A stretch of DNA of 64,000 bases from Dysidea avara (Eukaryota > Porifera > Demospongiae > Dictyoceratida > Dysideidae), in contig NC_089276.1 in assembly GCF_963678975.1 (NCBI RefSeq), positions 7,961,098 to 8,025,097 of the forward strand, in the 5' to 3' direction. The notes beneath the pieces were generated by a model. It saw nothing but the letters and a program-made list of their open reading frames with translations, did no database searches and was not told where the DNA came from. The translations under genes and the position numbers were made by a program. The first letter of the stretch is position 1. Each line of letters begins with the position of its first letter. Shown here in pieces: positions 16,221 through 57,832 of the stretch.

Positions 16221-16256
16221 CCTCCCCACCAAGCTTTTCACGAGATGTGAAAAAGC

Positions 16257-24855: not shown

Positions 24856-24868
24856 TAATCAATATATG

Positions 24869-29625: not shown

Positions 29626-29628
29626 GTG

Positions 29629-31497: not shown

Positions 31498-31520
31498 TGG
31501 GGAACAAATTGTAGGGAAAA

Positions 31521-32642: not shown

Positions 32643-32979
32643 CACTGTGAAAAAGGTGGGATATAATATGGTATTTCCAGTGGCTTATTGAATACAAATA
32701 AGCCTTAATATAAATCCTGTATTATACTCATGTTATACTTTAATATAATGCATACTATACTATTACATATATGGTTTCAGTTTATTTACCACAATACTTG
32801 AGATAGCTTATATCTGTTATAATGCCCACACTATACTATCACATATATGGTTTCAGTATGTTTAACACATTAACTAAAGTCTTATGTGGGATTGTTAGTA
32901 TAATACAGGTTATACCAAGCTTTTTTGTATTCAATAAGCCACTGGAAATACCATCTTATATCCCTCTTTTTTCACAGTG
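32643..32979. mobile_element. CACTA-like MITE inserted in the BEL gag
   Basis: 337 bp with imperfect inverted repeats of about 50 bp (CACTGTGAAAAAGG...TTTTTTCACAGTG, with GGTATTTCCAGTGGCTTATT and its complement inside). It is flanked by a 3-bp duplication AAA (32,640-32,642 and 32,980-32,982). The gag reading frame on both sides resumes at the same codon when insert and duplication are discounted. CACTG ends and a 3-bp duplication fit the EnSpm/CACTA group. An internal direct repeat (ATATATGGTTTCAGT) occurs twice. Confidence 0.92.
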
Positions 32980-33546
32980 AAACCTTTTCACATCACCATT
33001 AAACTTAGGTATGACCAACTTTGGCAATTTGGGCATGGGTTTGGACTGTCTGATTGGAGGTGAACTAGTTACAGTTGTCACTGAGTCTGTTGTCATGGTT
33101 TCTGTAGTGGTGGGGGTTGTAGTCACAGTGTCTAATCGACCATCTGTTTCTTGCTGTTGACCTGGTAATGATTCAGGTTTGTCACCTTCTGGTAGTGATT
33201 GAGGTGAAGCTACCACAGGATTGGTAACGTTTGCCTTATTACAAAATTCTGTTATTTCTTTTCTGGCCTCACCAATTTTATCACTGAGTTCAGCAGCACA
33301 AACTATATCATCCTCTATCTCTCCAACTGGGCAAGCATCCACTATTTTGTCATCTAGTTCTTGCAATATGACCATTTTGCCTGCTAGGTGTTCATGAAGT
33401 GTTTTAAGCCGTGACAGTCCTTTAGCAGAAACTTCCTGCTCCATCAGAGAAGATGCTTCATTGAGAAATCTGCTAACCACACTTCGTTGGTCTCCTCTTC
33501 GAGCTTTCAGTTTGTCTAGTAACTCACTGTCTGACATTATGTTCAA
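32980..33546 (-). pseudogene. BEL gag N-terminal part
   Basis: Begins MNIMSDSELLDKLKARRGD with a predicted helical and charged segment, then Gln/Thr-rich linker and PKLPKLVIPKFNGDVKRF, the segment that in BEL elements leads into the gag core. It runs into the MITE at 32,979. Confidence 0.88.
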
Positions 33547-33732
33547 TATTTCAACAAATTTACAAACTACACTATATAGTCCAAAATGATTTGCCAGAAG
33601 TCTATGTATCTAGATGTAAAATGAAAATAACTGAGAAAAACAGTTCTTATACAATACGAATTCTTCACCTTTACAGGTGCCTATTCACACCCGGCACCAA
33701 GGAATTCAGGTCAGTCTTCAGGCTCAGGCTGT

Positions 33733-37059: not shown

Positions 37060-39980
37060 AAGCTACTACAACTAATTTGCCACCGTCTGCTTCATTCTAT
37101 CCTACAGATCCATGTGTTGAATTTCAGTGGGGAGAGATTGATGGTACTACTGTTGTTGAGTCTATTAATGATGCTTATGAAGAAGTTATTCACTGGAAAC
37201 GTAATGGTTTTTTTTTTTAGTTCCATCTGGTAGGATAGGTAAAGAATTTGTACTGGAGCTTGCTAGGCTATATCAAGCCTATGCCGATAACACAACTCTT
37301 CACTCTATTGCTCTCACAGCCTGTTTTATTTTTCAGGGGCTACTTCTCCAAAAACCTCATGCCAAGAGTAAAACCAAAGATCATACCACATGTTTGGAAC
37401 GTCGTCTTGCTTTGTGGCATGCTGGTGATTTTTCAGCCCTAATCAAGGAAGGAAAATGCATTCAGGATCATCTTCAATCTGCTATTCACAAGACTGGTCA
37501 CAGTAATGTGGCTCGTGATTTTGATCGTCTAATGTCAATGGGCAAGATTTCTGCTGCAGTTGAACTCCTTTCTGCAGATGCTAGAGGTGGTGTCTTGTCA
37601 TTGGACTCTCAGATACCATGTGGTTTGGATGAAGCTGGTTATCCTTTAACTCAGTCAGTGAAGGACATCCTTATTGACAAGCATCCCCCTGCAAGAATGG
37701 CAGTTCCCGAATCCCTTTTATCCTCTGATAATGCTAATGCACCATCCTATGATCCTATTTTATTTGACCGTTTAACTGGAGATCTAATTAAATTGGCAGC
37801 TTTTCATACCCAAGGTGCTGCTGGTCCATCTGGTGTGGATGCATACTCCTGGGGTAGGCTGTGCTCATCCTTTGGACGTGCTTCAGTAAGCTTATGTAAC
37901 TCTCTAGCTGCTGTGGCACGACGTTTGTGTACACAGGAGGTTGATCCCAAAGAACTTATGGCTTTTGTTGCCTGTCGGCTTATTCCACTTGACAAGAAAC
38001 CAGGAGTACGACCAATTGAGATTGGTGATGTTTCAAGGAGAATTATTGCTAAAGCTATTCTCTATGTTATTCGTACTGACATTCAGTTGGCTGCCGGTGC
38101 ATTACAGACTTGTGCTGGCCATAATGCAGGGGCAGAAGCTGCCATCCATGCAATGAGAGAAATATTCGCACATGAGAATACTGATGCTGTTTTACTGGTT
38201 GATGCCAGTAATGCCTTCAACCAGGTTAATCGCCAAAGTGCTCTGCATAACATTTAAATTCTGTGTCCATCTTTTGCAACTATTCTTAAGAACACCTATG
38301 GGGTGCCTATTAGACTATTCATTACTGGAGAGGGAGAGATAGCTTCGACAGAAGGCACAACACAAGGTGATCCTCTTGCTATGGCCATGTATGCTCTGGC
38401 CGTTACCCCCTTAATACGTTCTCTTCGTCAGTCTCAGCCGGATGTTTCACAGGTGTGGTATGCTGATGATGCCACTGCGGGTGGACAACTTGCTTCTTTA
38501 TTGCATTGGTGGAAACATCTTTTGACTTATGGCCCTATGTATGGCTACTTTCCAAATGCTGCTAAAACATGCCTCATAGTGAAGCCAGATCAACTCAATT
38601 TTGCTCAAACACTGTTTAATGGCACTAATATACAGATTTCTTGCGAGGGTCAACGTCACTTGGGTGCTGCTATTGGAACTAGATCATTTACAGAAAGCTA
38701 TGTCTCTAACAAAGTAAAAATGTGGTCTGAGGAGATTTTATCTTTATCAAACATTGCTGAAACTCATCCTCATAGTGCGTACAGTGCTTTTACCCACAGT
38801 ATCAAGCATCGCTGGAATTATATAATGCGTACCATCGAATCAGTGGGTGCATTCTTTCAACCACTTGAAGAAGCTATTCACCAACACTTTCTTCCTGCTT
38901 TAACAGGTCGAATGCCCAGTTCTGAGGTGGAGAGGGAACTACTTTCACTCCCTTGTCACTTTGGTGGACTGAACATTACCAACCCCACCTACTGTAGTGA
39001 TTCCCAGTTTTCATCATCTAGGCTGCTGAGTGCTAGTTTAGTTGCTATGATACAACAGCAAACTGAGAACTTTCATATCCCTTGCCTTCAACAGGCTCGC
39101 TCTACCATCCGTCAGTCCAGACAACAAATAATGACTTCTAGCTTAGCCAATATCAAGTCTCGTGTAGATCCTCCGCTTCAACAAACCATTGAATTAATCA
39201 GTGTTAAATGCTCTTCACTTTGGTTAACTGCTCTTCCACTTCAAGAGCAGAGGTTTCATTTGAACAAACAAGAATTTAGAGATGCACTGTGTCTGAGGTA
39301 TGGCTGGCAACTAGCAAATATTCCAAGTCACTGTGTTTGCGGAACTTCATTTAGTGTTGATCATGCCATGATTTGTCGACATGGTGGCTTGACTTTCATC
39401 CGCCATAATGAACTTTGAGACTTAACAGCAGAATGGTTACAAGAAGTGTGTCATGATGTTACTGTTGAACCTCCATTACTGCCACTTAATGGGGAACTAA
39501 TTACACCATCTTCAGCTAACTGCAGTAATACCGCAAGAGCTGACATCCATGCAAGGGGCTTCTGGGGCAGACGACAAGGTGCATTGTTTGACGTCAGGGT
39601 TTTCCATCCCAACGCACCAAGTTATCGTCAGACCCGGGTTGCTTCCCTTTTTCGTCGACATGAGCTCGAGAAGAAGCGAGAATATGGGGATCGTATACGC
39701 AATGTTGACTGTGGACCTTTCACCCCCGCTAGTTTTTTCAACTTTTGGTGGTTTGGGCAAGGAGGCTACTGTTTTCTACAACCGTTTGGCAGATCTTTTA
39801 TCACAGAAGCACAATACGTCTTACAACCAGACACTCTCCTGGATGCGCTGTGCTTTATCATTTTCCCTATTACGTTCCGCTGTACTGGCCATCCGTGGGA
39901 GCAGAAAGCTGCAGTCAACCGAGCTCCCCACTGTTTCCACTGAGCTGCGCCTAGTGGAGAGCCGTATTCTTACTGATTAG
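37060..39980 (+). pseudogene. decayed reverse-transcriptase element ORF
   Basis: One long plus-strand coding region with four breaks: a frameshift at a T run near 37,205; TAA at 38,255-38,257; TGA at 39,416-39,418; a frameshift near 39,720. N-terminal part FQWGEIDGTTVVESINDAYE, VPSGRIGKEFVLELARLYQA and CLERRLALWHAGD. RT palm motifs: VDASNAFNQVN (box A), TTQGDPLAMAMYALA (box B) and WYADDATAGG (box C, Y-A-D-D). The C-terminal part has a Cys/His segment (HCVCGTSFSVDHAMICRHGG) and ARADIHARGFWGRRQ...ALFDVRVFHPNA, possibly a PD-(D/E)XK-type nuclease (inference). I recall this RT family as common in sponge and cnidarian genomes but cannot name its clade. Confidence 0.88.
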
Positions 39981-39985: not shown

Positions 39986-39994
39986 TTGTTTTTA
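39986..39994. repeat. 9-bp target duplication, left copy
   Basis: TTGTTTTTA, identical to 57,824-57,832. Lies 6 bp after the stop of the RT pseudogene. Confidence 0.85.
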
Positions 39995-40330
39995 CGTAGT
40001 GGCTATTCGTCCGGTTCCGGACGCCGACTTTACCAGGCTATTCGTCCGGCTCTGTTCACGTGATCCGGTTTTAATATAATACGGCTTTAGTATACCTGAA
40101 CTACAGTATCCTGAACTTAATGTGTTGATGGAATCAGATGAGTCCTGTTTTACAGTTGGCGATAGGTTCGCAACTTTTTCTGAATTAGAACAAAAAATTC
40201 ACAGATACGAGAAGGGGACTGGTTTGTGCAATTCTGAGAGATAGCTAAATAGAACAACCGAGAGAGAAACCCACAAGAATTTCAAGGAAGAGATAGTATA
40301 TTCAGACTGTTTTAGCTGAATTCACGGAGG
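39995..40330. repeat. left terminal inverted repeat of the 17.8-kb element
   Basis: Tip CGTAGTGGCTATTCGTCCGG. Pairs with 57,510-57,823. It includes the beginning of the transposase-like reading frame, so coding sequence lies inside the terminal repeat. Confidence 0.85.
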
Positions 40331-40375
40331 AAAAACATTTAAAAGTAAATCTGAAGGAAAGAGACCCAATCAGTG
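40128..40375 (+). pseudogene. transposase N-terminal remnant (FAR1/FLYWCH-like)
   Basis: ATG at 40,128 opens MESDESCFTVGDRFATFSEL, then QKIHRYEKG, to a TAG at 40,242. Further decayed sequence reads IHGGKTFKSKSEGKR before a GTAAGC donor at 40,376. I recall the pattern G-D-x-F-x-(T/S)-F-x-E-L-E-x-K-I...Y-E, then C-I-H-G-G-K-x-F-K, as the DNA-binding start of SWIM-zinc-finger MULE transposases in invertebrates. Two stops make it nonfunctional. The DDE and SWIM parts that should follow are absent, apparently through internal deletion. Confidence 0.6.
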
Positions 40376-40761
40376 GTAAGCTTGATGTGGTTGCTGGCCT
40401 AGCCTACATGCTTTTGCGTGTGTGTTTCTGTATGTGTGTGTGTGTGTGACATGTGTGCGCGCGTGCGTGGAGTGAGTGAGTGAGTATAACTCTGTTCTGC
40501 CATGACCACGTCATAGGGCTGCATGATGACCCGGCACCTCTTGGTGGCTTGACTAGCTAACACCAGTATCCCTGTCCCTGCTGCAGTGCAGGCAGGGTCA
40601 GGGATTGCAATTTACAACAGCTTTATCACAGATATTATACTAACCTTGGGTCAGTATATCTATGGCTTTATGTCTTATGAGAGGAAGGATTTATTTCTTG
40701 ACCCCCACATGTTTCTAGAGCTTATACCACCATGTATTATGTGTATATGCATCCACTGCAG

Positions 40762-41308
40762 ACGTTGAGTTGTCTGATATAAGATTGCCTGGTAGAGTAC
40801 TAAAACGAGGGATGCCTAAAAGTTCAGACTTAACAGTTATTGGCTTACCAAAGAAAATGAAGTTAGCAGAAGGACCTTTTGCTTTTCTTAGACAGCATCC
40901 CAAGTATCAAGAAAGAGGTATATTTATTATCTGTTTGATTACATTACTATAGCAATGCACTACTCTTCAGGAAATGTTGAAATGGTTTGTTTCTGTTCCT
41001 GATGCTAACACGGCTATGAATGATGGTGTCGTACTGGATGTAGCATCAGTACATGCAAGGCATGAGAAGATACCAAATGATATGCCTGCATAGACGAGAA
41101 TGTTAATTGTTCCGAATCAGAAAACATTTCACTGATGGTGGATGGGCTCAACTGTGTCAGGTCATGGAGAAGAAGAAGTTTAACCCCAGCTACCAAGTGT
41201 GTGAAAGGGAGTTATTGGAATGCACAGCTATATGCTGTGATTGTCATATATCTCATGTTGGATTGAAGTCTACACCAAAGCGAAAAGAATGGTTTTTCCA
41301 CTTGTGCT
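40762..41308 (+). pseudogene. MULE-associated linker and PHD-like finger remnant
   Basis: Exon-like 40,762-40,917 (after CTGCAG, before GTATAT) reads RLPGRVLKRGMPKSSDLTVI then GLPKK. The next exon-like segment from 40,971 reads EMLKWFVSVPDANTA and reaches a TAG. From 41,110 the frame reads RIRKHFTDGGWAQLCQVMEK and then a Cys/His cluster (C-x-x-C-H-I-S-H ... W-F-F-H-L-C), resembling a degraded PHD finger. The order, linker then finger then Ulp1, matches MULE/Ulp1 genes as I remember them. Confidence 0.55.
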
Positions 41309-41462
41309 AAATGAGTCACAGTAATGAAACAAAGTCACACAGTGAAAATACTACACCACAAGTAATCCCTAAAACACAATGCTTTACATGTCACATTTCC
41401 GCCTGGAACATTTGCAAATAGATCACGTGAAAGAAGAGCAAAGGAGAGATTAAAAAACACAG

Positions 41463-42260
41463 GTGCTGAGCACCACAAGTTCAGATGAAGAGTATGAGGA
41501 ACCAGATAGAACTGTCATTGAAATTGCTGCAGGAGTAAAGGTTTATGAATCTGATTTAAAAATTCTACAGAATCAAATGGATTGGCTTAATGCAAGACTA
41601 ATGAATGCTGGGCAAACTTTGCTGAAGAGAAAGTTTCAAAACGTATCAGGATTACAGCGAAGCCAAACATGTATGTTTGATAATAAGAGTGGTGAATTTG
41701 TACTGGTACTAAATTGCTATGAATCCTATTGGATTCTTGTGTCAAAAAGAACTGTAAAATTACACTAGTTAACATTAATGGCAGCAGTTGTATGGGAGTG
41801 TTCCAATCACACCTGGAAAGTACTTGTCCCTAACGTTTCTGGGTGTCCAGGTGGTTCTGACTGTGGATTGTTTGTTCTTGCATTTGCTTATACTTTATGT
41901 GCTGGAGCAGTTCCAGAGAAAATGACATATAATCAAAGTGAGCTTATGTCACACTTTTTATGTTGTTTGACAAGGAAGAGCTCCTGCAAAACCATTACTA
42001 AAAAAACCTGCACTTGTCGACTGCCTGACATTTGGGATGGTATGGTAAAATATCATCCATGCTTAGAACGTTTTCACCAGCCATGCATTCAAGCAGATAA
42101 GACATTCTACCCTCCAAGTGGTACTGTTCTGCATGTATTAAGGAACAAATTGAGGAACCAGGCCAATTGTGTGCTTATATATTGTTGTGAGTTACGTACA
42201 TTTGTTATATTGTTTGTATGTAATCTATATTACAGTGGGGGCTGGTTATTTATCTAAAGT
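41463..42260 (+). pseudogene. Ulp1/SENP-like cysteine protease (C48) remnant
   Basis: Two plus-strand frames. 41,463-41,768 has VKVYESDLKILQNQMDWLNA and FQNVSGLQ, the substrate-side start of a Ulp1 domain (the W-L-N-x segment). 41,778-42,257 has NVSGCPGGSDCGLFVLAFAY, the catalytic cysteine motif (G-S-D-C-G). It is followed by a C-x-C-R-x-P...C-L-E-R-F-H-Q-P-C cluster, like a PHD finger. Ulp1 proteases remove SUMO; copies inside MULE and KDZ transposons are well known, their role is not. A stop between the two frames (41,766-41,768) breaks it. Confidence 0.75.
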
Positions 42261-42600
42261 TATGATTATTCATGTTGACTGCAGAATTCTCATAATAATG
42301 CATTCATTAATATTTTCCCTGCCTCCACATAAAAGGAAAAATAAGTGGTCTGGCTACATGAGACTAGCAGGCTGTATGGAGTTAAGGTGGCCATCCATTT
42401 TCAGATCTGACAACTTTAATGTGGTCAGATTGAACAGCCAGCCAGAATTGGTAAGGGATGGTCATAAAATAATCTAATTTGATTGATGATGTAATTAAAG
42501 TTGCAAAATAAGTGTATATATCTATCTAAGATTTTTTTATTTACAACTTTTCTTAATTTTGCTGTGCATACAGTAGCTACAAACATCAGTAAAATATATA

Positions 42601-42919
42601 TCTAATCCAAAACAGCCAAGCTGTAAAAAAAGTGTGCGGCCCTCAGAAAGGCTATGGTGAAAAAAGATGTGAAATCCAAGGTGGCGGCCAAGAAATGGCT
42701 GTGATGGTAGGTTAATGGTAAAAATTTTAATAATGACAATTCAGGTAAATTTTGTGAAGCGGCACAAAAATTCACCTGAATTGTCGTTATTAAAATTTTT
42801 ACCATTAACCTACCATCACAGCCATTTCTTGGCCGCCACCTTGGATTTCACATCTTTTTTCACCATAGCCTTTCTGAGGGCCGCACACTTTTTTTACAGC
42901 TTGGCTGTTTTGGATTAGA
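42601..42919. repeat. 319-bp near-perfect palindrome
   Basis: Begins TCTAATCCAAAACAGCC and ends GGCTGTTTTGGATTAGA. Arms of about 147 bp differ at a single position by eye (AATAATGAC against AATAACGAC), with a loop of about 25 bp. Each arm yields the same 60-odd-codon reading frame on opposite strands, which is only a consequence of the symmetry. Half of one arm is also present at the tail of element L (25,256-25,360). Confidence 0.93.
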
Positions 42920-43192
42920 TTTCATTTCTTTTTGTATTTGTATACCCCAAAGCCGGCCTATGGCCAGCTTTGGGACTATTTTAACCTATGTTTTTTTTCT
43001 TTACTACAGGAAGAAGAAAAGATGAAGTAGATGTACTTTAAATATTTTATCAGTAAATGTACAAATTATATATATATAATACATATGTGATCGGATTTGC
43101 AAAAAGGGGTCTTCCACACACATCCAATTTGCCAACTTTGACAATTGATAACTTCAGATTGCAAAGAGCTATTGCCTTGAAATTTGGGCAGT

Positions 43193-46100
43193 GGTGATTT
43201 CTTTGCAGCTGAACTCTCTACATGATGGTTTCTTTGTAGTTGAACTCTCTACAAGGTAATTTCTTCTAGCTGATCTCTCTACAGGGAGATTTGTTTGTAG
43301 CTGAACTATCTACAAGGTAACTTCTTCTAGCTGATCTCTCTACAGGGTGATTTGTTCATAGCTGAATTCTGTACAGGTGATTTGTTTGCAGCTGAGCTCT
43401 TTACAAAATGGTTTCTTTGTAGCTGAACTCTCTACAAAGTAACTTCTTCTAACTGATCTTTCTACAGGGTGATTTGTTTGTAGCTGAACTATCTACAAGG
43501 TAATTTCTTCTAGCTGATCTCTCTACAGGGTGATTTGTTTGTAGCTGAATTCTTTACAGGTGATTTGTTTGCAGCTGAGCTCTTTACAGAATGGTTTCTT
43601 TGTAGCTGAACTCTCTACAAAGCAACTTCTTCTAACTGATCTTTCTACAGGGTGATTTGTTTGTAGCTGAACTATCTACAAGGCAACTTCTTCTAGCTGA
43701 TCTCTCTACAGGGAGATTTGTTTGTAGCTGAACTCTCTACAGGTGATTTGTTTGTAGCTGAATTCTGTACTGGTGATTTGTTTGCAGCTGAGCTCTTTAC
43801 AGAACGGTTTCTTTGTAGCTGAACTCTCTTAAAGGTAACTTCTTCTAACTGATCTTTCTACAGGGCAATTTGTTTCTGGCAGAATTTTCTACAGGGTGAT
43901 TTCTTTGCAGCTGAACTCTCTACATGATGGTTTCTTTGTAGCTGAACTCTCTACAAGGTAATTTCTTCTAGCTGATCTCTCTACAGGGTGATTTGTTTGT
44001 AGCTTAATTCTTTACAGGTGATTTGTTTGCAGCTGAGCTCTTTACAGAATGGTTTCTTTGTAGCTGAACTCTCTACAAGGTAATTTCTTCTAGTTGATCT
44101 CTCTACAGGGAGATTTGTTTGTAGCTGAACTATCTACAAGGTAACTTCTTATAGCTGATCTCTCTACAGGGAGATTTGTTTGTAGCTGAATTCTGTACAG
44201 GTGATTTGTTTGCAGCTGAGCTCTTTACAGAATGGTTTCTTTGTAGCTGAACTCTCTACAAGGTAACTTTTCTAGCTGATGTCTCTACAAGGTAGTTAGT
44301 TTGTAGCTGAACTCTCTACATGGTGGTTTCTTTGTAACTGAACTTTCTACAACGTGACTTCTTCTAGCTGATCTTTCAATAGGGTGATTTGTTTGTAGCT
44401 TCACTCTCTACAAGGTAACTTCTTCTAGCTGATCTCTCTACAGGGAGATTTGTTTGTAGCTGAACTTTCTAAATGATGGTTTCTTTGTAGCTGAACTCTC
44501 TACAAGTTAACTTCTTCTAGCTGATCTCTCTGCAGGGTGATTTGTTTGTAGCTGAATTCTGTACAGGTGATTTGTTTGCAGCTGAGCTCTTTACAGAATG
44601 GTTTCTTTGTAGCTGAACTCTCTACAAGGTAACTTCTTCTAACTGATCTTTCTACGGAGCAATTTGTTTCTGGCAGAATTTTCTACAGGGTGATTTCTTT
44701 GCAGCTGAACTCTCTACATGGTGGTTTCTTTGTAGCTGAACTCTCTACAAGGTAATTTCTTCTAGCTGATCTCTCTACAGGGAGATTTGTTTGTAGCTGA
44801 ACTATCTACAAGGTAACTTCTTCTAGCTGATCTCTCTACAGGGTGATTTGTTCGTAGCTGAATTCTGTACAGGTGATTTGTTTGCAGCTGAGCTCATTAC
44901 AAAATGGTTTCTTTGTAGCTGAACTCTCTACAAGGTAACTTCTTCTAACTGATCTTTCTACAGGGCAATTTGTTCGTGGCAGAATTTTATACAGGGTGAT
45001 TTCTTTGCAGCTGAACTCTCTACATGGTGGTTTCTTTGTAGCTAAACGATCTACAAGGTAACTTCTTCTAGCTGATCTCTCTACAGGGAAATTTGTTTGT
45101 AGCTGAACTCTCTACAGGTGATTTGTTTGAAGCTGAACTCTCTAAATGATGGTTTCTTTGTAGCTGAACTCTCTACAAGTTAACTTCTTCTAGCTGATCT
45201 CTCTACATGGTGATTTGTTTGTAGCTGAATTCTGTATAGGTGATTTGTTTGCAGCTGAGCTCTTTAAATAATGGTTTCTTTGTAGCTGAACTCTCTCAAG
45301 GTAACTTCTTCTAGCTGATGTCTTTACAGGGTCACTAGTTTGTAGCTGAATTCTCTACATGGTGGTTTCTTTGTAACTGAACTCTCTACAAGGTAACTTT
45401 TTCTAGCTCATCTTTCTATAGGGTGATTTATTTGTAGCTGAATTCTGTACAGGTGGTTTGTTTGCAGCTGAGCTCTTTAAAGAATGGTTTCTTTGTAGCT
45501 GAACTCTCTACAAGGTAACTTCTTCTAGCTGATGTCTCTACAAGGTCACTAGTTTGTAGCTGATCTCTCTACATGGTGGTTTTTTTGTAACTGAACTCTC
45601 TCTACAAGGTGACCTCTTCTAGCTGATCTTTCTACAGGGTGATTTGTTTGAAGCTGAACTCTCTACAAGGTAACTTCTTCTAGTTGATCTCTCTACAGGG
45701 AGATTTGTTTGTAGCTGAACTCTCTACATGATGATTTCTTTGTAGCTGAACTCTCTCAAGGTAACTTCTTCTAGCTGATGTCTTTACAGGGTCACTAGTT
45801 TGTAGCTGAATTCTCTACATGGTAGTTTCTTTGTAGCTGAACTCTCTACAAGGTAACTTTTTCTAGCTCATCTTTCTACAGGGTGATTTATTTGTAGCTG
45901 AATTCTGTACAGGTGGTTTGTTTGCAGCTGAGCTCTTTAAAGAATGATTTCTTTGTAGCTGAACTCTCTACAAGGTAACTTCTTCTAGCTGATGTCTCTA
46001 CAAGGTCACTAGTTTGTAGCTGAGCTCTCTACATGGTGGTTTTTTGTAACTGAACTCTCTACAAGGTGACCTCTTAGCTGATCTTTCTACAGGGTGATTT

Positions 46101-46330
46101 GTTTGAAGCTGAACTCTCTACAAGGTAACTTCTTCTAGCTGATCTCTCTACAAGGAGATTTGTTTGTAGCTGAACTCTCTACATGATGGTTTCTTTGTAG
46201 CTGAACTCTCTGCAAGGTAACTTCTTCTATTGATATCTCCACAGGGCGATTTGTTTGTAGCTGAACTCTCTACATGGTGGTTTCTTTGTAGCTGAACTCT
46301 ACAAGGTGATTTTTTCTAGCTGAACTATCT
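43193..46330 (-). repeat. 31-bp satellite array in element R (about 100 monomers)
   Basis: Same monomers as in L, in reverse (GATTTGTTTGTAGCTGAAC then TCTCTACAGGGT). A rarer variant containing TTTCTGGCAGAATTTTCTAC recurs near 43,862, 44,660 and 44,965, and also once in L near 24,580, marking a higher-order repeat shared by the two arrays. A further short stretch lies at 46,545-46,640 beyond a LINE fragment. Confidence 0.92.
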
Positions 46331-46334
46331 CTTT

Positions 46335-46545
46335 CCATGATTATTGTTATGATTATTATTATTACTGAGCAGTCAGCCCTGCTGGTGTGCTCAGATTTGC
46401 CCGAATACATGTAACACAATTACAATAATGATTGTAGTCCAGTTCTAAAAATGTCAGCATCTGCAACTTCAACAAGATCTACTGGTAAGGAGTTCCAATC
46501 ATTAATTGTTCTTGAAAAATAACTATTTTTTTCATAGTTGCATGA
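46335..46545 (-). pseudogene. LINE 3' tail inserted in the satellite of element R
   Basis: Minus strand reads RTINDWNSLPVDLVEVADAD and then IFRTGLQSLL, the C-terminus of an L2-type LINE ORF, with an (ATAATA)n-like end at 46,340-46,370. Satellite monomers continue on both sides, so this is a recent 5'-truncated insertion. Confidence 0.75.
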
Positions 46546-47499
46546 GCTCCCTACAAGGTAACTTCTTCTAGCTGATCTCTCTACAGGGTGACTTGTGTGT
46601 AGCTGGTCTCTATACAGGTTTCTTATTTCTAGCTGATCTCTTGAATTCTCTTCAGGGTGACTGCTCTATTAGGATGACTGCTCTATTAGAGTATCTCGAT
46701 CTCGCACTTGCTGCACCAAGTTGGATTTCGTGTTATAACTCCGTGGCTTTAAGTTTGATTCTTCTACACCATTGATGAGCCTTTCTAAGATGATTACTCC
46801 ATCTGTACAACGATTTTCAAAGCATTACCCCTAGTGGTTTATCTGGTAGGCGTGACAAGCAGTCGTTTTTTTATTAGCTGATCTCGATTGCGTAATTGTT
46901 ACACACTGTTGGTTTTTTCGTTGTATCTTCCTGGTTTTTAGCTCGATTTCTTTCAAACCACAAAAGGTTTGAGGTTCAATAGTTAACCTATTCACCCACC
47001 GATTTTCAGCTTCTTCCCATACGCGATTTACCCTGTAGGCGTGACAACATATTGGTGTTATTTTTCGTGAATAATCGCTCATACCTCTTTGCCTGTTTAT
47101 CGTATTCCAGCCAAAGTTGGTACCGAGATGCGCCTTTATATCCCCCTTCTGTGTGCCAAATTGCAAGGCAATCGGATATGGCGTTCGAGTTTTATAGCAG
47201 TTTTTGTAAGTGTGCGACAAGAAGAAGAAAAAGAAGAAAAAAACGAAGAAACTGAGCCAATTTTTGAAGTCGCATATCTCGAAAACGCGCTAAGCGATTT
47301 CTCTCAAATTTGGAATGTGGAGTGCTGCAGTTGGAGGGCATGTCCACAGAAAAAATCGTCTTGTTTCATCAAGGAAGCACAGAGCTACGGAGGTGCGAAA
47401 ATTGCGTTTTCTTCCTGTCAATATACTCACGGGTGTTACGCGCCGGCTTCTTGGGCCGCACGACACACTACCGTGTGTCTTTATATATATATTATGATG

Positions 47500-48140
47500 G
47501 TTGTAAAATTAAAAATACAGTCATGACATAGATGTGGGAAATAATAACATAGATGGCTTGCTGTAGTCAATCCATATCAGAAAACTTTTATTGCTAAAGT
47601 GTGCGAGGTTACTGAACCCAGCTATTGGGAAGATAACCATACTTGCCATAGTGGGACTGGCATTGGCTACCTAAGTAATACAGCTTCTCAAAACACATTA
47701 CAATTTATTAATGTCTGGATGACATGTAACAGCACACAGTAGATTTATACAGTATCAATAAATGTTGGTCATATAAGCACATGCACAACTGATCACAATT
47801 TTTTCAGTGAGTGTGTGTATTCCTTAATCCTTCAATATGGCCTGTCTCTGCAATCATAGGCTGTTGGGGTAGTCTTTTTAACTTTCAAAGCAATGTATTA
47901 TTTTAATGCTTTCTTCTTGTTCTCATCATCCAGGTGACGTTGTTGAGGAAGACGAGCAAATTCACCTGTAGTATATAGCACATTGTACAGTTAATTTAGG
48001 GTAGCATGGACATTAATTTTAAGTATATGTATAGCAACTTCTTTGTCACAAAAAATTGAAATTTTAAATTATTTTGCATAACCTGTACATCCAAATCATA
48101 CACACAATTAAGTAGCTATACCCATTAAAAATTATACATT
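47500..48140. other. noncoding interior of the 17.8-kb element
   Basis: No gene, repeat family or RNA recognised. Confidence 0.5.
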
Positions 48141-48149
48141 ATATTACTA

Positions 48150-48560
48150 TAGTGTCTGTCCAGCAGATTCCAGGGGAGTTGGAGTCAATCACTGATTGGG
48201 ATAAAGAATTCCAATCATTAATCACTCTAACTGAAAAGAAAGATGATCTTGACAAGCAATTTGTATGTGCATGGCTTGAATAATTTCATGTTGTGCCTTC
48301 TTCTTCTTCTTGTGATTGTGGAGAATGACAAAAAGCTCTCTGTATTAATTTTGTTATAGAAATTGTTGATCATTTGGTACAAAAATAGCAGATCTCCTCT
48401 GAGCCTTCAGTACTGTAAAGATGGTAAATTTAAATAGTGCAATTGATCATATTAAGACAAATCACAACAGGTGGTAATCATTCTAGTGGCTCTTCATTGT
48501 ATAGCTTCTATCTTATGTTTATATCCATGATGTAATATGGCCCCCAAATTGCATTTTTAT
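48150..48560 (-). pseudogene. decayed LINE C-terminal fragment
   Basis: Minus-strand pieces HHGYKHKIEAIQ, RATRMIT, and further on FFSVRVINDWNSLSQSVIDS, in the order seen at the end of non-LTR reverse transcriptases. Frames are interrupted. Confidence 0.65.
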
Positions 48561-48563
48561 ACT

Positions 48564-48924
48564 TAGGGGTGTGGTAATTATGCCGGAATAATTTTCAGTA
48601 TAATGCCAGAAATCATTATTCTAGCATTATGCTAGCATTTTGGAATTATTAAAGATTTCATGAATGAACGATCGATGTATTCTAATAGAACAGTAACCAG
48701 ATCGAGATACTCTAATAGAACAGTCATCAGATTGAGATACTCTAATAGAATATTCACCTATATAATATTATACTCTATAATTAACCATAGAATTTTTAAT
48801 AAACAGTCAATTCTACATTTCTATTTTAATTTATTGGAATAATTTTGAGAATAATGCAAGCTTTTCCCAGGAAATTCTGAGTAGAATAATGTAATGAATC
48901 ATGAGCATAATTACCTCAGCCCTA
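48564..48924. mobile_element. hAT-like MITE carrying three copies of the dispersed motif
   Basis: Ends TAGGGGTGTGGTAATTATGC and GCATAATTACCTCAGCCCTA. Flanking 8-mers TTTATACT and GTTATACT agree at seven positions. 361 bp. Interior has three copies of (GAT)-ACTCTAATAGAACAGTCA-like sequence at 48,675-48,755. Confidence 0.8.
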
Positions 48925-49604
48925 GTTATACTCAAGCAGTAGACAGACTAGAGATTTGGCATATCATCCAAGTCCATACATTCAAATACTTTAGAAATAA
49001 GACCTAAATTACAATTAGCCTTCTTTGCAGTATAATCTGTGTGAATGTAGAACTTTAGTTTAGAATCCATGTAAATTACCACTGATACAAAATAGTGCTA
49101 AAAGAACCAATGGGCCGTATTAAAATATACAAAACACTATCCTATAGTCATCTCAGTGCCAGCTTTTCACAAGTTATACATAACTGCATGATCACTTTTG
49201 CACATAAGAAATTGGTACATGTCTATAACTATGTAAACATATTCAATTAATCAGCAAATATTGTACCTTCTTTAGTTCATGGCTGTGATCAGTGTTAATA
49301 AAAGTTACAAAAAGCTCTGAAGCACCGTTTCACTTTAGTCAATGATTTTAGCTTAGGTTCCCTGGCTCGTGATAAACACCTCATACAGGCTTTTCCTCTA
49401 GTGTTCACCCTCCAGTGCTTAACTGGTAAAGCAGATTAAAAACAAAAAACGGAGTTTAATTTTTTCAACTAAAACACCTTTCCTATTCACAAAACACACA
49501 TATAATATAATTCACACAAATTGTCAAAATTATGTCTAATGCCAGGTTCTTCCCTATAGAGAAACCAGCATGTGCCATATTTTAAGTTTCTAGCTACAGC
49601 TTAT

Positions 49605-49960
49605 TTATTTATTAGCAAAACCCTTAGGGGTAACACGCTAATGTACAAGCACAGTAATAATCATTATGTAAATAAGTACAACCTAAATATTTTTATGTCA
49701 ACTTCATGTAGATCAGGGTAGGGTAGAGAATTCCGTTCAATAGTCGTCTTGGGGGGAAAAGAGTTACAGTAACTTTCTGTGCTGGGTTGGTAGTGAGAGA
49801 ATTTTAGGTGATGATTAGCTCTAGTGTTTGTAAAAGATGGTGACAGCAGGTAGTTGTACAGCTAGTTACAATGGAATAATACTCTCTCAGTCCTGTTCAA
49901 CTGGTGCACTACACTGTGCAAAAAGTTTGATATACTCAGGTGCACACTAGTAGGCATAAC
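49605..49960 (-). pseudogene. LINE C-terminal fragment
   Basis: The minus strand reads SFTNTRANHHLKFSHYQPST, ESYCNSFPPKTTIERNSLP and a terminal VDIKIF, clearly the last 80 or so residues of a non-LTR reverse transcriptase, ending near (TAAA)n at 49,600-49,610. 5'-truncated. Confidence 0.75.
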
Positions 49961-50594
49961 TCAATTATACATTCAATTTACACAGGTATGTATGAATATG
50001 ATATACTATAATTGTATATCCTGTGTATTACAAATTGGCTGCTATACACTGGTGTGTATACATCATGTGTACATATGTAATAGATATACACAATGTAGTA
50101 TAGCTTACCACAGCTTGTTGGCATGGCTACGTGGGCACAGTACATACAGCTAACTTATTATTAAATTCTTATGTATTCTGTGCTATTTTTAAAGAATTTA
50201 TGTATAAAAATGTAATTCAATAAACTGTAACACACACAACAACAGCTCCATTGTCATCCCAAGTGGCATTAATCTAAGCTTGCCTTTATGTAGAATTACA
50301 TTTGTATAGAAAAAAAACATTAAGATGTTCTCTGTCATGGTGGCTTTTCTTCATCTACACCAGGCCTGACCCAGTTGGTGGTTGCTGTACATCAATTCAA
50401 GCCATACATGTAGTACTATTTTCACCAGGCTGCATCTGCCAAGACATAGTTATTTTAAAGAGCACATAGGCTACAATTACCAGTATAAAATTTATGGTAC
50501 AACTTTATAACTGACTGAAAGAAACTGCAAAAGAACAGTTGTAAAGTTGTAAATGCTCAGAACAGTTGTAAAGTTGTGAATGCTCAGACATACA

Positions 50595-51125
50595 GTACTT
50601 ACCAGTTGTATGTCATACAGCTTCAGTTCTCTTCGCTGACTGAATCTGCAAAGGATATCAGTTGTTAGTGAACAAATGCTAGTGAAAACTTACCAGCTGT
50701 CCATCGTACACATGGGTACTCTCTGTTGAGTGAATCTGCCAAGGATATCGGTCATTATTATACAAAGGCCGTGGTCATACTTAGCAGTTGTCTGCCGTAA
50801 ACTTGGGTACTCCTTGATGGCTGAATGATATTGATTGTTAGTGCACAAAAGGCTATTGCAAGTTGTCCATCATACAAAGACCATGGTCATTATTGTCCAT
50901 TGAATAACTTGAGTATACTTTGCTGACTGAATCTGTCAAGAATATAAGCTGTTATTAGTATGCAAAGGCCATGATCATACTTACCGATTGTCTGTCATTA
51001 TAACTTCAGTACTCTTTGCTGACCGAATCTGCCAAGGATATCGGTTGTTAGTGCACAAAGGTCATCGTACAACTTGAGTACTCCCTACTGAGTGAATCTG
51101 GCACACTTTACTGGTTGAATCTATC
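50595..51125 (-). repeat. tandem array of exon-like units with splice signals
   Basis: Six units with a period of about 91-106 bp. On the minus strand each has an acceptor (TTTGCAG, TTGGCAG, TTGACAG), then a 42-44-bp body starting ATTCAGTCAGC or ATTCACTCAAC, and, in units 1, 2 and 5, a GTAAGT donor. Bodies: 50,603-50,645; 50,694-50,735; 50,785-50,826 (both sites mutated); about 50,891-50,932; 50,985-51,028; about 51,062-51,097. One frame is open in units 1 and 2 (FSQRRELKLYDIQL; FTQQRVPMCTMDS) but closed in others, so a noncoding transcript is at least as likely as a protein. Confidence 0.6.
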
Positions 51126-51159
51126 ATACCAAGAATATCAGTAGTAAGTGCACACAGGC

Positions 51160-52480
51160 TATAGGTTATGAGGGACAAAACTGTGCAAAACTGTGTAAAA
51201 CATGACTTTAAATTCACAAAATCTAGAGAGCATCATTATACATTACTTCACTAAGGTAATCACTCAATGATTTCATCAATATAAAATTATATAGAAAACT
51301 GTCAATATTCACAAATTTGCAAGAATTTCATCCCTCAAAAATTTCTAGCATTTGTTGTCATTTCATCGATGCTTTTTTAATTATACAGTATTTAGGCATA
51401 CTTAACAGTTGCTGGTGGAACATGACTGTTGGCGTACATAACATCTATGCTTTTGGGTAATGTCGTACACCACATTTATACCGCTGCAGTACCGGGAACA
51501 TTGGCTTCATCGTCATATCATACACAAAGTATTAGGAGGATCTGTATACTTGAAAATTATTATTAAGTCCTATATAAGGTAGGTAGTCAATTTAACTTTT
51601 AAGAACAGTATGTAAGCCACAGTGGTAACTAGCAACATGCATACATACATTTGGCCAAGACTGTGATATTAATATAGTCACCTGTAGTAACACTATAGTC
51701 ACATGGCTACTTGTTCTTCCTTAATAAATTTTGTTACAAAGGCCAGCTACCCAAACGTTTGATAGCACACACTGAAAGAACAAGTAGGCCTTACATAATA
51801 TATATTTAGTACGGACTATTCAGGCGTAGAGAAACGTGTAAAACCACTGGAAGCGAGCATATGCTCACCTCTTTGATATGATTGGTTATAGTACCTATCT
51901 CTAATGAAAATTTTAATGAGCTGGACACATGCAAGTGCTGTTGTTTTCCATGAGTAATAGTGCACCGCAGTGCTGATTCACTGGGTAGGCGCGACCACAT
52001 GTCTGCACATCCCAGACCAAACTCGTTACTATGGAATTTTCTATTTAGCCAAATTTTCTGCTGACGCCTTCATAACTATGTTTAGCACTATGGGTATGAT
52101 TTCAGTTAAGTCATACAAGAGACCAAAAAGTAAGCTGCATACTTTCGTATAGTGTGATGGAGACTTTAGTCTATAATAAAAATGATTCATTGTAGATTGG
52201 TCACTTACTACGCACAGTGTAGAATTATTCACAGATTCTTTAACTATATGTATGTGATTACACCCAACATTCTTTGTTTGTGTACAGTCATGAACATCCA
52301 TTGTAATGCCAGTTTACAGCAATGATTGCCATTTTACCAGACCACCACTGGAACGTGAAGCATGACAAAGTGAAACTTGACAATCTATGAGGTACATACA
52401 GGCTGCTGTTGCTTCCTCCAAGAAAATTTCGTAGATCCTCTGAGGATGGATTATAGAGGAATTTCAGTAATTTATCATAA
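51160..52480. other. noncoding interior of the 17.8-kb element
   Basis: Short ORFs near 51,806-52,301 on both strands show no domain. Nothing recognised. Confidence 0.5.
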
Positions 52481-52592
52481 TTGTCTCAAATTATGGCTGA
52501 TCTCATATCACTCACTGGTCTGGTTTCATTTAGCCACCAGAGTATAACCAGAAAATGCCAATTCAAGTATTTTAGTCATCATAGTGTAAAAA

Positions 52593-52867
<275 letters not shown>

Positions 52868-53325
52868 TAGGGACCTGCCGATTATGTTAGCATAATTTTG
52901 AGCATAATAGGTACCTAAAAGCATTGAGCATAATGCCAGCATAATAGGTTAAATATTTGTACGATAGTGTAAACTCTTGCTGGGAAAATGACAATTGCAA
53001 AATAAGATGGATATACTCTAATAGAGCAGTCAGTAACTCTAATAGAACAATCATCAAACTGACTGTTCTATTAGAGTATATCGATCTTGTCTCTTACATG
53101 CAGGCATGCAGCAAGAATTTATTATTTGTGTTCCAGCCACTCATTTTTTTCTTTCTATATAGTGTTAAACTAGTAGCAAAGCATATGAACTAAGGCATGA
53201 ACATTGAGCATAATCGAGCATAATAGGTAAATATTGAGCATTAATTTAAGCATAATAGGTGAATTTTTTGAGCAGTGCAGCATAGCATAATAGGTAAAAT
53301 TATCAGCATAATCGGCAGGTCCCTA
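52868..53325. mobile_element. hAT-like MITE inserted in the minisatellite
   Basis: 458 bp, ends TAGGGACCTGCCGATTATG and CATAATCGGCAGGTCCCTA (19-bp inverted repeats). Perfect 8-bp duplication TTTATTAT at 52,860-52,867 and 53,326-53,333. It contains repeated GAGCATAAT blocks and an inner inverted pair of the dispersed motif (CTCTAATAGAGCAGTCAGT / ACTGACTGTTCTATTAGAG). Confidence 0.92.
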
Positions 53326-53744
53326 TTTATTATGCATATGTGTGTGTGCATGTGTAATGTACTGTAGCCTACCTATACACACATGTAGGCTCACTTATCT
53401 CGTTCATAAAAAGGATAAGCTTGATCACTGATGTAAGTTCCAGGGGAGACCACAGTTTTCTCCTGCAGTGTAGCCTTCTCCATCACATCGTGTAGGTACT
53501 GTAGAAACAGGAGTACACACCATAAAACTTTCAGTAGCCACCCACACTATGAATAGGAATACATATATACATGGAATCCTTGCAGTACACTAATCCCTAT
53601 AAACACTGTAATCAACTAGGATGACCTTCACACATACCTGTACAAACATATGACACTCAGTTACTGTAGTAGCCCTACGTGAAATTTAAAAAAATCGATG
53701 CACTAAAATTTTCTCCAATTTCCTTCTTCTATAGCTCATTTAAA

Positions 53745-53826
53745 TTGCCATGCACTACTTTTCCAACAAAATCTGAGGTATCTATTTGCCATGCACTACT
53801 TTTCCAACAAAATCTGAGGTATCTAT
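53745..53826. repeat. 41-bp perfect tandem duplication
   Basis: TTGCCATGCACTACTTTTCC and the following 21 bp occur twice in a row with period 41. Confidence 0.9.
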
Positions 53827-54094
53827 TATGTGTCATGAGATATGTCTTTTATTGCATTTTGCAATACAAAATTTGTTACACCAGGTTGGTTGGGTCATTG
53901 TGGTGCCAAAATTTCCATGAATTAGATCATTGTGCTCATAGAGGGTTGCTCTACACATATCACACCTGAAAAGTTACCAGACACAAAGTAGGCTGTACAC
54001 AATAATTAATTTTACAGAAACATATTGCACATACTTCTTAGCTGTCATTTTAGCCATGAGCAAACAGTTTGTACAATGATTGTTTTACAGTATA

Positions 54095-54552
54095 CAGTCA
54101 AACCTCTCTAATGCGACGCTCAATGGGAGCCATAGATTTTGCTGAATAAAGGAGGTTGTTGGATTATCAAGTCACCTCTGTAATCCGACATTATACAATA
54201 TGTCAGATTATGCAGTAAATAACAGGTAAAACAGATCACACAATGTTTTAAACATGAATTAATTTTAGAATTTGTAAGTATTACAGCTTTTTTCTATTAC
54301 TGTCAACCAATTAAATACTTTGGTTGCTTAAAAATTATTTTCTGTGATTATTCTAATGCCGCTATTATTCTCTGTCAGATTACAAAGGTCAAAAACAATG
54401 CATTTCCAAGTCTAGAGAATCGCAGTTTGTGTCGGATTATGGGGTACAGAGTTGTCAGATTACAGAGGTTGTTTTCTATACAAAAATGTTGGTAAATGAC
54501 ATTTCAGTCGGATTCTGGATTATGCAGGTGTTGGATTAGAGAGGTTCGACTG
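54095..54552. mobile_element. pogo/Tigger-like MITE
   Basis: Ends CAGTCAAACCTCTCTAATGC and GGATTAGAGAGGTTCGACTG, the common end type of pogo-group elements. TA precedes the left end; the right side reads AATA. Several internal copies of GGATTA/TAATCC. No transposase. Confidence 0.75.
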
Positions 54553-55084
54553 AATATACAATTACTGTTTTACAGAGGACACCTGCATAACCTGGACACT
54601 TAGTTGAGGCCCCAAAGTACCAGCTTTTACATGTAAACTGACCTGGAAAATCAGGACATCTTAATAATCAGGACATTTTTGGTTGATCCCAAGGTGTCTT
54701 TAATACACAGGTTCCACTGTAATGAATTTATATTTCATTTTGAATATCAGGACACCCTCCTATCTCACATAGCTAGACCAACTTTTTCAGGGGAAGTTCC
54801 ACTGCTTGGTGCAAATTGGCAAAGCCATTATCTTCTTACTGTTTAGGTTCTGAGACTATTATACTTTAAAATGTGGCACAGTGTTTGCTTGAACACAACA
54901 GGATACAAAACAAGCATGTTGCTCAATAGCAAAAGGCTTAGTCAGTCTGGCTATGCGAGATTTGTTGGACTCCTGAACATACATACAAACTAAATCATCT
55001 GTACATAATACTTGATACATCACTCTTAACCTACACTTCGGATGGTGGTGGTCTATCAAAGCGTCGTACCAATGATGGTGACCG

Positions 55085-55180
55085 GCTATACAATATGACA
55101 CAGTGGGAGATACAAAATGACACAGCGAGACATACAATATTATGACACAGTGAGACACATAATATGACACAGTGGGACTA
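55085..55180. repeat. 23-bp minisatellite (TATGACACAGTGGGAG...)
   Basis: Four degenerate copies of a unit containing TGACACAG(T/C)G(G/A)GA. Explains the repetitive 131-codon minus-strand ORF over it, which I do not accept as a gene. Confidence 0.75.
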
Positions 55181-55399
55181 ACACGTGCAAAAGCAGTGAT
55201 GTCATGCTTAGAGGTGTGTCCAGAATGAGTGCGACTATTCAAACTGGACCACACCCATTTTTCTCCCTACAAAGATAAAGTGGTCTAGCCAGGTGAGACT
55301 AGTACATAAAGTATAACATGCTTAAGTAATCTGTAAAGGACAATACAAACATATCATAGATCCTTTACACTCTAAGGATCTATGAACATATCCACTCAC

Positions 55400-55545
55400 C
55401 AAGAGGAATGTAGTAGTGAAGTAGTATTCACAGCGGAATCAACACTAATAACTAACTAGTTACTGTCTGTCCAGTTTGCCACATAACTGTAGGAATTTGC
55501 GCGGTGGTCTAGGACGATGAGCTCTTCCAGAGTATCAAATCACGT
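55400..55545 (-). ncRNA. possible first exon of a minus-strand transcript
   Basis: On the minus strand, sequence from the CACGTG-containing region ends at CTTG|GTGAGTGG. It lies head-to-head with the plus-strand exons from about 55,560 and could lead to the exon-like array at 50.6-51.1 kb. No long ORF. Weak evidence. Confidence 0.3.
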
Positions 55546-55559
55546 GATTCGTAAGTGTT

Positions 55560-56700
55560 CGAATTTATAAGCAACACTAGTTTTACAACCGGATGCGGTT
55601 AGACCTCTTTTGCCGAGAGCTCAGACTAGCAGTGTGTGAAGTCTAGCGCAGTTCTTTTCATCCGAGTTTTTATCGATGATACTTTGTTTCATTGCGCACT
55701 GTTCTGTCGGGTCGGAGGCACTTTTATGTGAGCACCGCCTCCAGAGGTGAGTCAGTGTAGCTATTAATGTTCACTTCTTATTGCCGTGGTGTACTAAATA
55801 TTAATCTTTTAGGTGTTAGCTAGACGCGCGTAGTTGTATCGCTCTCAAGACTAGGTCAAGGCGTCGTGCTCCACTAGTATCACGGTAAGCGTACATGAAT
55901 TGTGCGTGTGGTTCATTAAAGTTTCTGTTTATGTAGTTTTGTCTTTAGGTACAAAAGCACATTTAAAAGGTTTGTTAGTTTACTTGTTGTCTATACTGTT
56001 TTACGGGCTGATGATTCAATGCAGGTATTGTATGGAAGTTGCTTTGGCGGCATAGTTTGCTGCATCATGCACTGACATAATAATAGCTTGGTAAGCAGTA
56101 GTGCTTCTTTCTTGCCAGCTTTAATTTTTCTTTTCAATGATAGTGGCAATGGAACTGCTGCTGCTTATTATGATTGCACAGCATTTCAATAGTTACAGGT
56201 ATGTCTGTTGTCGTATTACTGACTAACTATTTTAAAGTATTCATTTTGTAGGGCTGAATTGTAGAATCACATGCTACTGATACTTCATTGTGTAGATGCC
56301 AGGCACATGATCATGATTGAGTTAACTGTGTTTATGCAGTGAACAGGTATAATAGCTTTTCATAGTTGTCTATTGGAGAATACACCTTTTCTATTGTAGA
56401 ACAGTGTGTGGAGTTTAGGAGATGTGAACTAGGAAGAAGAATTATGTCCACACATGTACATCTGGTGAATTTATCAGCTTCGTTTCATTGGTAAGGCCAC
56501 AAAAGAGCATTTGAATCATTGTTAAGTGATTTCTTTTGTCTGTAGACGTCGTTTGATGATGAGACCTATATAGAAGAAGAATGATGTACCTGCTACTTTT
56601 ATCAAAGTGAACACTACTGGACACATTTCATGTTGTTTACTCAATGTTGTACAATTTTAAATTTTTTAATATGAAACCTCTAATCTTATAATAGTAAAGA
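55560..56700 (+). ncRNA. possible multi-exon noncoding transcript inside the transposon
   Basis: A chain of segments bounded by good splice signals: about 55,560-55,746 (GTGAGT), 55,813-55,884 (GTAAGC), 56,144-56,198 (GTATGT), 56,252-56,346 (GTATAA), 56,400-56,490 (GTAAGG), and from 56,546 on. The first segment is GC-richer than its surroundings. No reading frame runs across the junctions: joining exon 1 to exon 2 gives an early stop, and exon 5 to exon 6 gives TGA. Either a noncoding RNA, a 5' leader, or chance. Confidence 0.35.
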
Positions 56701-56744
56701 TATTCACATCAGATATACTACATTGAGTTACACCACAATTATAC

Positions 56745-57000
56745 ATTGGTGAGTATATCAAATATGTATTTCTTACATATGCACATATTATACTTATGTA
56801 AACAGAGGTTATACACGTGGTTAACCAGTAGTGTATAAGTCAATTATACTCATATATTATACATAGTAGTGTAAATGGTATCTATACACAGGTACAACCA
56901 TGGTGTATAACAGATGTGCCACACATGTGTATCCTTGGTGTATATCATAATAATACATCAGTTATACACCTATGTATTTCAAATGTTTTGCATGGTGCTA
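56745..57000. repeat. TATACAC-rich repeat, related to 49,912-50,110
   Basis: Both stretches have GCAAAA, then TTGATATAC/TTGAAATAC, then GGTGTATA-type blocks in opposite orientation. Looks like a diverged MITE family with no clear ends. Confidence 0.4.
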
Positions 57001-57509
57001 TCAATTATTAGTTGGACACAGTAAGCGCTACACACTAGAATATCAATCTCCACTTCCAATCAAGGGGATGCTATAGTAACCAATCCACAAGCTTTGAATT
57101 TAGGCCTAGTAGCTAATTAGAGAACCTCTAGGAAGGTGGATGGCTGCATGTGGATGATAGCTGGGAACTACGGAAGCAGATGCTTCTCCTCGTGAGAGGT
57201 GTGCATAAAGCAACTCAACTTTGAGGAATAAAGCAACTCAACTTTGAGGAAAGGGAGGCCTATGATGTCTGGTCTCAATTACTAAAACAGGGATATGGGG
57301 TGGTGCCATTAGACATGATGAAGTGGTGTGTTACTAGCCCATGATGACGTGGACGTAGCAGTATGGAGCCATACATACAGGCTCCTTGGTATACATACAT
57401 ACATATACAGGCTCCTTGAGCCTTCTTCACCTGTAACACAAATACTAAATACTAATACACACCCACACACAGAGAGGCAGCAATCACATATCAACTGAGC
57501 TTACTGCTG

Positions 57510-57823
57510 ATTAATTGGGTATCACTTCTCTGAATGCAGCTAAACACTTGTGGGTTAGCTACTCTCTTTCTAGCAGCTTCAATCTCGCACAAACCCGGCC
57601 TTCTCTTATCTGTTAATTTTTTCTTCTAATTAGGAAAAATCGCGAACCTATCGTCAACAGGACACATAGTCATAGGATTCCATCTACATCTTCCCACCAG
57701 ATCGCACACAAGTTCAGGATAGCTCAAGTATACTAACGCCGTATTATGTTAAAAGAGGATCACGTGATCCGAGCCGGACGAATAGCGTAGTGAAATTGGC
57801 GTCCGGGAGCGGACGCCACTACC
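57510..57823. repeat. right terminal inverted repeat of the 17.8-kb element
   Basis: Reverse complement starts GGTAGTGGCGTCCGCTCCCG and follows the left end through the GATAGGTTCGC and GAGAAGG blocks. The transposase-like frame seen on the left is broken here. Confidence 0.85.
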
Positions 57824-57832
57824 TTGTTTTTA
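57824..57832. repeat. 9-bp target duplication, right copy
   Basis: TTGTTTTTA, identical to 39,986-39,994. Confidence 0.85.

Follow-up and report, generated by a model that had tools for sequence, protein, structure and literature searches.

A well-bounded, non-autonomous Mutator-like transposon, probably of the Ulp1-bearing type, in the sponge Dysidea avara

A 64,000-nucleotide stretch of the genome of the sponge Dysidea avara (contig NC_089276.1; C5:7961098-8025097 of a 550.8-Mb assembly), referred to here as the window, holds a real, well-bounded and non-autonomous Mutator-like element (MULE) that is probably of the already known Ulp1-bearing type. Its outer ends and a perfect 9-bp target site duplication enclose 17.8 kb, with coding remnants close to the left end and two further insertions in its interior (Table 1). 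An earlier note on this DNA, made from the letters alone, had described a Mutator-like transposon with a perfect 9-bp duplication, and the identical copies of TTGTTTTTA on the two sides bear this out, the limits drawn there coinciding exactly with the element plus its duplication. The two full ends, 235 and 237 bases aligned, are identical as inverted repeats at 185 of 220 ungapped positions, and the self-alignment that the note had proposed pairs them by BLAST with an E value of 3e-41 (178/239 identities, 27 gap positions); the inverted ends that it claimed are real, its length of roughly 300 bp is to be corrected to ~235 bp. The left end is unlike the right in sister copies as well, and the identity between the two is therefore not a measure of insertion age. 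MULEs carry target site duplications of 8-11 bp and terminal inverted repeats, often long, of 14-500 bp (PMC6446971), and both features are present in the window at 9 bp and ~235 bp.

The window flanks were joined with a single TTGTTTTTA and the resulting empty site was searched in the genome. The query gave 42 matches, of which 34 cross the junction without a break (88-99% identity), two are the halves in the window itself and six are partial. Because of the 34 unbroken matches, 39,995-57,823 represents a single transposon insertion; its target is the 3' end of a long interspersed nuclear element (LINE), the frames of which, at 37,205-39,943, were named by reading. Seven of the unbroken matches were read and none has an insert at the junction; six hold exactly one TTGTTTTTA with TGTG directly after it and the seventh (L071) holds one TTGTTTTTTA, with one extra T in its tract. 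Copies of the LINE on C15, C8 and C5 that break near the insertion point were considered as excision footprints and ruled out, being T-tract expansions.

Searches with the left end (query 39995-40245; 40 of 123 candidates scored) and the right end (40 of 73 scored) gave at least 47 and at least 49 genome matches respectively, and left and right ends face each other in at least 13 places including the window, 3.9-17.8 kb apart, some with one partial end; the earlier note had proposed a search for copies sharing both ends, and such copies exist. The 9-mers flanking 15 two-ended copies (nine of the window's end type, three miniatures among them, and six of the GTAGTTG type described below) agree at 9/9 positions in eight copies and at 8/9 or better in 12, and none of 210 mismatched control pairings reaches 8. 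The target duplications in most two-ended copies consist of nine AT-rich bases. Because of the facing end pairs, the agreeing 9-mers and the joined flanks that are unbroken at other loci, the pairing of the ends is far beyond chance, and the ends are not the separate, unlinked repeats against which the note had weighed its own reading. That two separate elements with similar ends lie 17.8 kb apart by chance could be argued from the small elements of ~540-560 bp with the same tips that exist (L048-L050), however the perfect outer duplication and the repeated pairing of left with right ends speak against it and the unbroken empty sites refute it, leaving this explanation vanishingly improbable. 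The three miniatures align to the MULE core over their outer 67-75 bases only, and their own 9-bp duplications agree at 9/9 in L049 and L050 and at 8/9 in L048.

The earlier note took 17.8 kb to be the size of the element, and this does not hold, with sister copies lacking stretches of 4.9 and 7.1 kb and one of them, L032, being ~5.8 kb long. The first stretch is absent from L031, L032, L033, L038 and L041, the second from L031, L032, L038 and L041, and L031, L032 and L038 are continuous across both points. Without the two stretches the window core comes to 5,869 bases, with identity to its sisters of 98.6% over 5361 bases in the closest (L031), 98.2% over 5868 in L032 and 97.7% over 5867 in L038; the other 17 fetched stretches cover 67-5,498 core bases at 84.6-98.4% identity. 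A giant MULE of ~17.8 kb with a large cargo would account for outer ends and a duplication that do span this distance, and two more copies span 16.7 kb and 14.2 kb, yet for the window copy it is refuted by the three sisters uninterrupted at both points, and the other long copies have retroelement-like frames inside them (labelled by reading), one of 1476 aa between element parts in the 14.2-kb copy (L034) and others in the 16.7-kb copy (L039/L040). We regard a giant element as extremely improbable.

Table 1. Features of the window element and its flanking duplication, in window positions
Feature	Position	Strand	Remarks
Left target site duplication, TTGTTTTTA	39986-39994		9 bp; single copy in empty sites
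Left terminal inverted repeat	39995-40229	+	Holds two direct copies of TATTCGTCCGG, also CACGTGATC
MULE N-terminal exon remnant	40128-40375	+	Ends ...GKRPNQ, then GTAAGC donor-like site; in-frame stops
Internal-deletion junction	40376-40763	+	Probably intron remnants; the relative's DDE (MULE)/SWIM part is absent between these exons
Basic tail exon remnant (RLPGRVLKRGMPKSSDLTVIGLPKK)	40764-40928	+	53% identity to relative, E=8.6e-16
First PHD-finger exon remnant	40974-41307	+	tblastn E=1.6e-12
Ulp1-like (C48) protease and second PHD-finger remnant	41472-42104	+	tblastn E=9e-40
Nested insertion 1	42604-47482		Satellite-bearing, 61-bp repeats, 4.9 kb; boundaries within a few bases, inside TA run
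Element core, right half	47483-49911	+	No coding assignment; carries older repeat
Nested insertion 2	49912-56993		Short inverted ends, 7.1 kb; boundaries within ~10 bases
Element core, right part	56994-57586	+	
Right terminal inverted repeat	57587-57823	-	Tip with 5-bp deletion relative to sister copies
Right target site duplication, TTGTTTTTA	57824-57832		9 bp

Further copies of the first nested insertion are found at 21154-25368 (-) and in L040 and L046. The two window copies of this satellite-bearing element with 61-bp tandem units, 21154-25368 (-) and 42600-47484 (+), share a hairpin GACACAC..GTGTGTC at one end, and the latter has a 121-bp inverted duplication at its other end; such ends may be those of a Helitron-like element. 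The right half of the MULE core gave 73 matches (40 of 1589 candidates scored), the long ones in family copies, and the older repeat within it, at 48,076-48,563 and 48,925-49,081, occurs at more than 20 other loci, mostly without the intervening 361 bases.

Across the genome 142 Ulp1-like relatives of the window remnant were matched, and several of the listed matches to the MULE profile (PF10551; 150 of 410 candidates scored) lie ~2.5-5.2 kb from such relatives on the same strand. One relative, at C3:485356-495487, measures 10.1 kb and has inverted repeats that agree perfectly over 63 bp; its core matches PF21056 ZSWIM1-3 RNaseH-like (2.3e-38) and PF10551 MULE (2.4e-17), and it also encodes SWIM (3.4e-4), with a basic GRPKG tail and two PHD stretches (PHD 8.8e-10) downstream and a weak Peptidase_C48 match (0.019, below cut-off). 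It belongs to a family with GTAGTTG ends at six loci, five of which have a listed MULE match and the sixth (C1) a Ulp1-PHD frame only; seven stretches from the five other loci, compared by their longest aligned pieces, are 96.7-99.0% identical to the C3 element, and the six target duplications agree at 9/9 in two, at 8/9 in three and are absent in one.

Pieces of the C3 element were compared with the whole window by tblastn at E<=0.01, and they match it in order, N-terminus (40239-40373, E=1.9e-6), tail, PHD and Ulp1-PHD. The transposase-like N-terminus, PHD-like stretch and Ulp1-like GSDCG motif that the earlier note had read from the letters are thus present at 40,128-42,104, in frames carrying frameshifts and stops. 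The profile search that it had suggested for MULE, SWIM and Peptidase_C48 proved unproductive, no Pfam family matching the window's own Ulp1 and other coding pieces. The element is filed as a MULE by these coding parts and its ends, in agreement with the Mutator-like identity first proposed, which is upheld by the ends, the 9-bp duplication and the homology of the remnants to a transposase-bearing relative.

The 438-aa DDE/SWIM piece of the relative and the two pieces before it have no match in the window at this threshold, nor in any of 20 fetched family stretches, some of which are incomplete elements; the DDE piece matches all four control stretches and the PHD-Ulp1-PHD piece 12 of the 20. 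The note had seen no DDE core and had held that a partner copy must supply it, and with the DDE/SWIM part missing this is sustained: the element has no MULE-type DDE transposase of its own and is a non-autonomous derivative. L031, L032 and L038 read through the deletion point without a break, and the loss of DDE/SWIM therefore came before the spread of the family. Sites resembling splice donors and acceptors lie at the break, which suggests a deletion with both endpoints in introns.

Because the transposase-bearing relative has the same parts in the same order, the Ulp1/PHD stretch, which the note had called cargo, is not captured but is a downstream portion of the gene that the MULE itself encodes. 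Capture from a host gene, as in a Pack-MULE, would be in keeping with the uptake of foreign DNA known for MULEs (PMC6446971), and parts of the right half (48076-48563 and 48925-49081) do match another repeat; it is largely refuted, however, by the relative, in which a single pair of inverted ends encloses the parts in the same strand orientation, and by the sister loci of that relative, which repeat the PHD-Ulp1-PHD frame beside an end, and Mutator transposons with Ulp1 are already published for hydra, lancelet and plants (PMC2836005). For the Ulp1/PHD part no captured host gene fragment was found, and we consider a Pack-MULE origin very unlikely, whilst capture may apply to unmatched parts of the right half.

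Within the relatives the protease was assigned with varying strength. Peptidase_C48 is above cut-off in L062 (1.3e-4) and below it in L061 (7e-4), L055 (0.016), L053 (0.019) and L057 (0.033), with no match listed for L052, and when PDB was searched by phmmer with the Ulp1-PHD stretch of the relative, PHD fingers came up but nothing Ulp1-like beyond a marginal match (0.031). The Ulp1 assignment is firmer in L062 than in the C3 element and has a further basis in the H-D-Q-C residues visible in L053, the roles of which, including that of the presumed catalytic His, we take from the C48 family. The PHD after Ulp1 is matched by PF00628 in L053 (8.8e-10) and L062 (2.1e-11), and in the window remnant it is assigned by homology. 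Seventeen stretches were searched for the ES-H-W site of the C3 family. Its His is Tyr in the window; of the 11 others that yielded the site, 10 likewise have Tyr and in one, L043, it is disrupted. The Cys of GSDCG is retained in the window remnant and kept in 9 of 10 stretches with the site found, L032 having Ser. Judged from the Tyr in place of the presumed catalytic His, the protease of the window looks spoiled. L052 has a Ulp1-PHD frame at 1812-2489 (-), open over 226 aa with Tyr for the presumed catalytic His, that is possibly a pseudo-protease in a MULE.

The ends point to where a transposase could come from. The pattern GTAGTKGCTATTCGTCCGG with at most one mismatch has 54 + 60 genome matches and its reversed control none (100 of 114 places listed). 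In the 20 kb inward of an end, a MULE match is listed for 9 of 11 GTAGTTG ends, 4 of 7 listed GCAGTGG ends and 0 of 34 exact GTAGTGG ends, the type of the window, among the 150 of 410 candidates scored. The ends have in common the tip CGTAGTKGCTATTCGTCCGG and two spaced TATTCGTCCGG-like copies; CACGTGATC follows 18 bp from where the second of these begins in the GTAGTGG and GTAGTTG types, and not in the miniature L048. Elements whose ends are related and whose flanking exons are homologous do carry a MULE transposase. The GCAGTGG ends mark a second MULE family with DDE and PHD (L051 1-8701 and L063 1-4551; C5:31406800-31419950), in which no Ulp1 frame of at least 120 aa was seen and the N-terminal exon seems inverted at both ends.

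We propose that the best candidate for the enzyme source is the GTAGTTG family, which is in the same genome and less damaged, and that it may cross-mobilise the window's family. The tail peptide used as a query (72 matches, all 91 candidates scored) brought up no closer transposase-bearing sister; outside the window family the best matches of at least 50 residues, at 52-57% identity, fall in GTAGTTG loci and at a place on C3 next to L076 (C3:3150800-3153300), itself a decayed relative of the C3 element, and shorter pieces reach 63%. Because none of the transposase-bearing elements found has the window's own end type, and the nearest such family is just 37-54% identical in protein, this candidate would be a cousin and not a parent. 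It is possible, if on balance rather doubtful, that the GTAGTTG (PHD-Ulp1-PHD), GCAGTGG (PHD) and transposase-less GTAGTGG families and the ~550-bp miniatures share one recognition module (the tip, two spaced TATTCGTCCGG copies, and CACGTGATC in two of the three end types) and form a cross-mobilising network, in which several parasitic families would live off one PHD/Ulp1-equipped transposase, whose PHD and deSUMOylase parts would guide or shield integration.

Taken together, the window element is very probably a non-autonomous Mutator-like DNA transposon of ~5.9 kb that has lost DDE/SWIM, has been enlarged to 17.8 kb by two nested insertions and would have been served by a transposase in trans. 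Its ancestor, itself not found, would have been a MULE with an N-terminus, DDE/SWIM transposase, tail, PHD, Ulp1-like protease and PHD. An internal deletion, shown by the comparison with the relative, removed the DDE/SWIM part, and the deleted form, keeping its long inverted ends, multiplied to at least 13 two-ended places. One copy entered the LINE, as the empty sites show, and later received the 4.9- and 7.1-kb insertions that its sisters lack; the transposase would most likely have come from relatives of the GTAGTTG-ended family or a lost sister of it. Several points weigh against this interpretation: besides the distance of the nearest transposase and its absence from the window's own end type, the count of 0 of 34 ends is not exhaustive and both C1 GTAGTTG ends are likewise without a listed MULE match; the flanking 9-mers disagree in L031 and L035, which have both ends, and in the C8 copy of the GTAGTTG family; nothing shows present-day mobility, and the right tip of the window copy is damaged.

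Elsewhere in the window a retrotransposon-like unit lies at 16078-20735 (-), with two 143-bp direct repeats 97.9% alike and, between them at 16257-20426, a 1389-aa gag-pol-like frame named by reading. Several long frames with frame breaks at 27790-33609 (-) read like what we take to be a BEL/Pao-type retroelement.

In itself the window copy is an unremarkable insertion, damaged and non-autonomous. What it offers is a fully bounded MULE example with empty sites and candidate enzyme-source relatives that keep a PHD-Ulp1-PHD C-terminus, in a genome whose near-identical copies would make it a place for testing why SUMO-/ubiquitin-protease and PHD domains occur in transposases of several superfamilies (Mutator, Ginger). 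Among Pfam families the RNaseH-like core of the relative matches PF21056, that of ZSWIM1/3, best (2.3e-38); ZSWIM1/3 are host genes and not transposons, and the window copy has no such core. Among the matches listed, titles and abstract openings in the open-licence literature describe no sponge MULE with Ulp1. Phantom and other animal MULE groups resemble the element in 8-10-bp duplications, inverted ends of variable length and SWIM/FLYWCH fingers, and differ in that the main text of PMC6446971 holds no word starting with Ulp. Ginger1 is alike in its C-terminal Ulp1, with PHD in one family (Ginger1-9_HM), and differs in its Gypsy-type integrase core (PMC2836005), whereas the core of the C3 relative is MULE/ZSWIM1-3 RNaseH-like and contains no Gypsy-like integrase. 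The earlier note had expected a notable lineage, and the element is less novel than that: PMC2836005 cites Mutator (MuDR-type) transposons with Ulp1 from Hydra, lancelet and plants, which share with it, as far as the Ulp1 assignment holds, the combination of a Mutator transposon and a Ulp1 domain; compared by description only, the window family differs from these in being without DDE/SWIM and in a Ulp1 without the presumed catalytic His. A figure legend in PMC2836005 announces an alignment of Ulp1 and PHD from Ginger1 and Mutator transposases.

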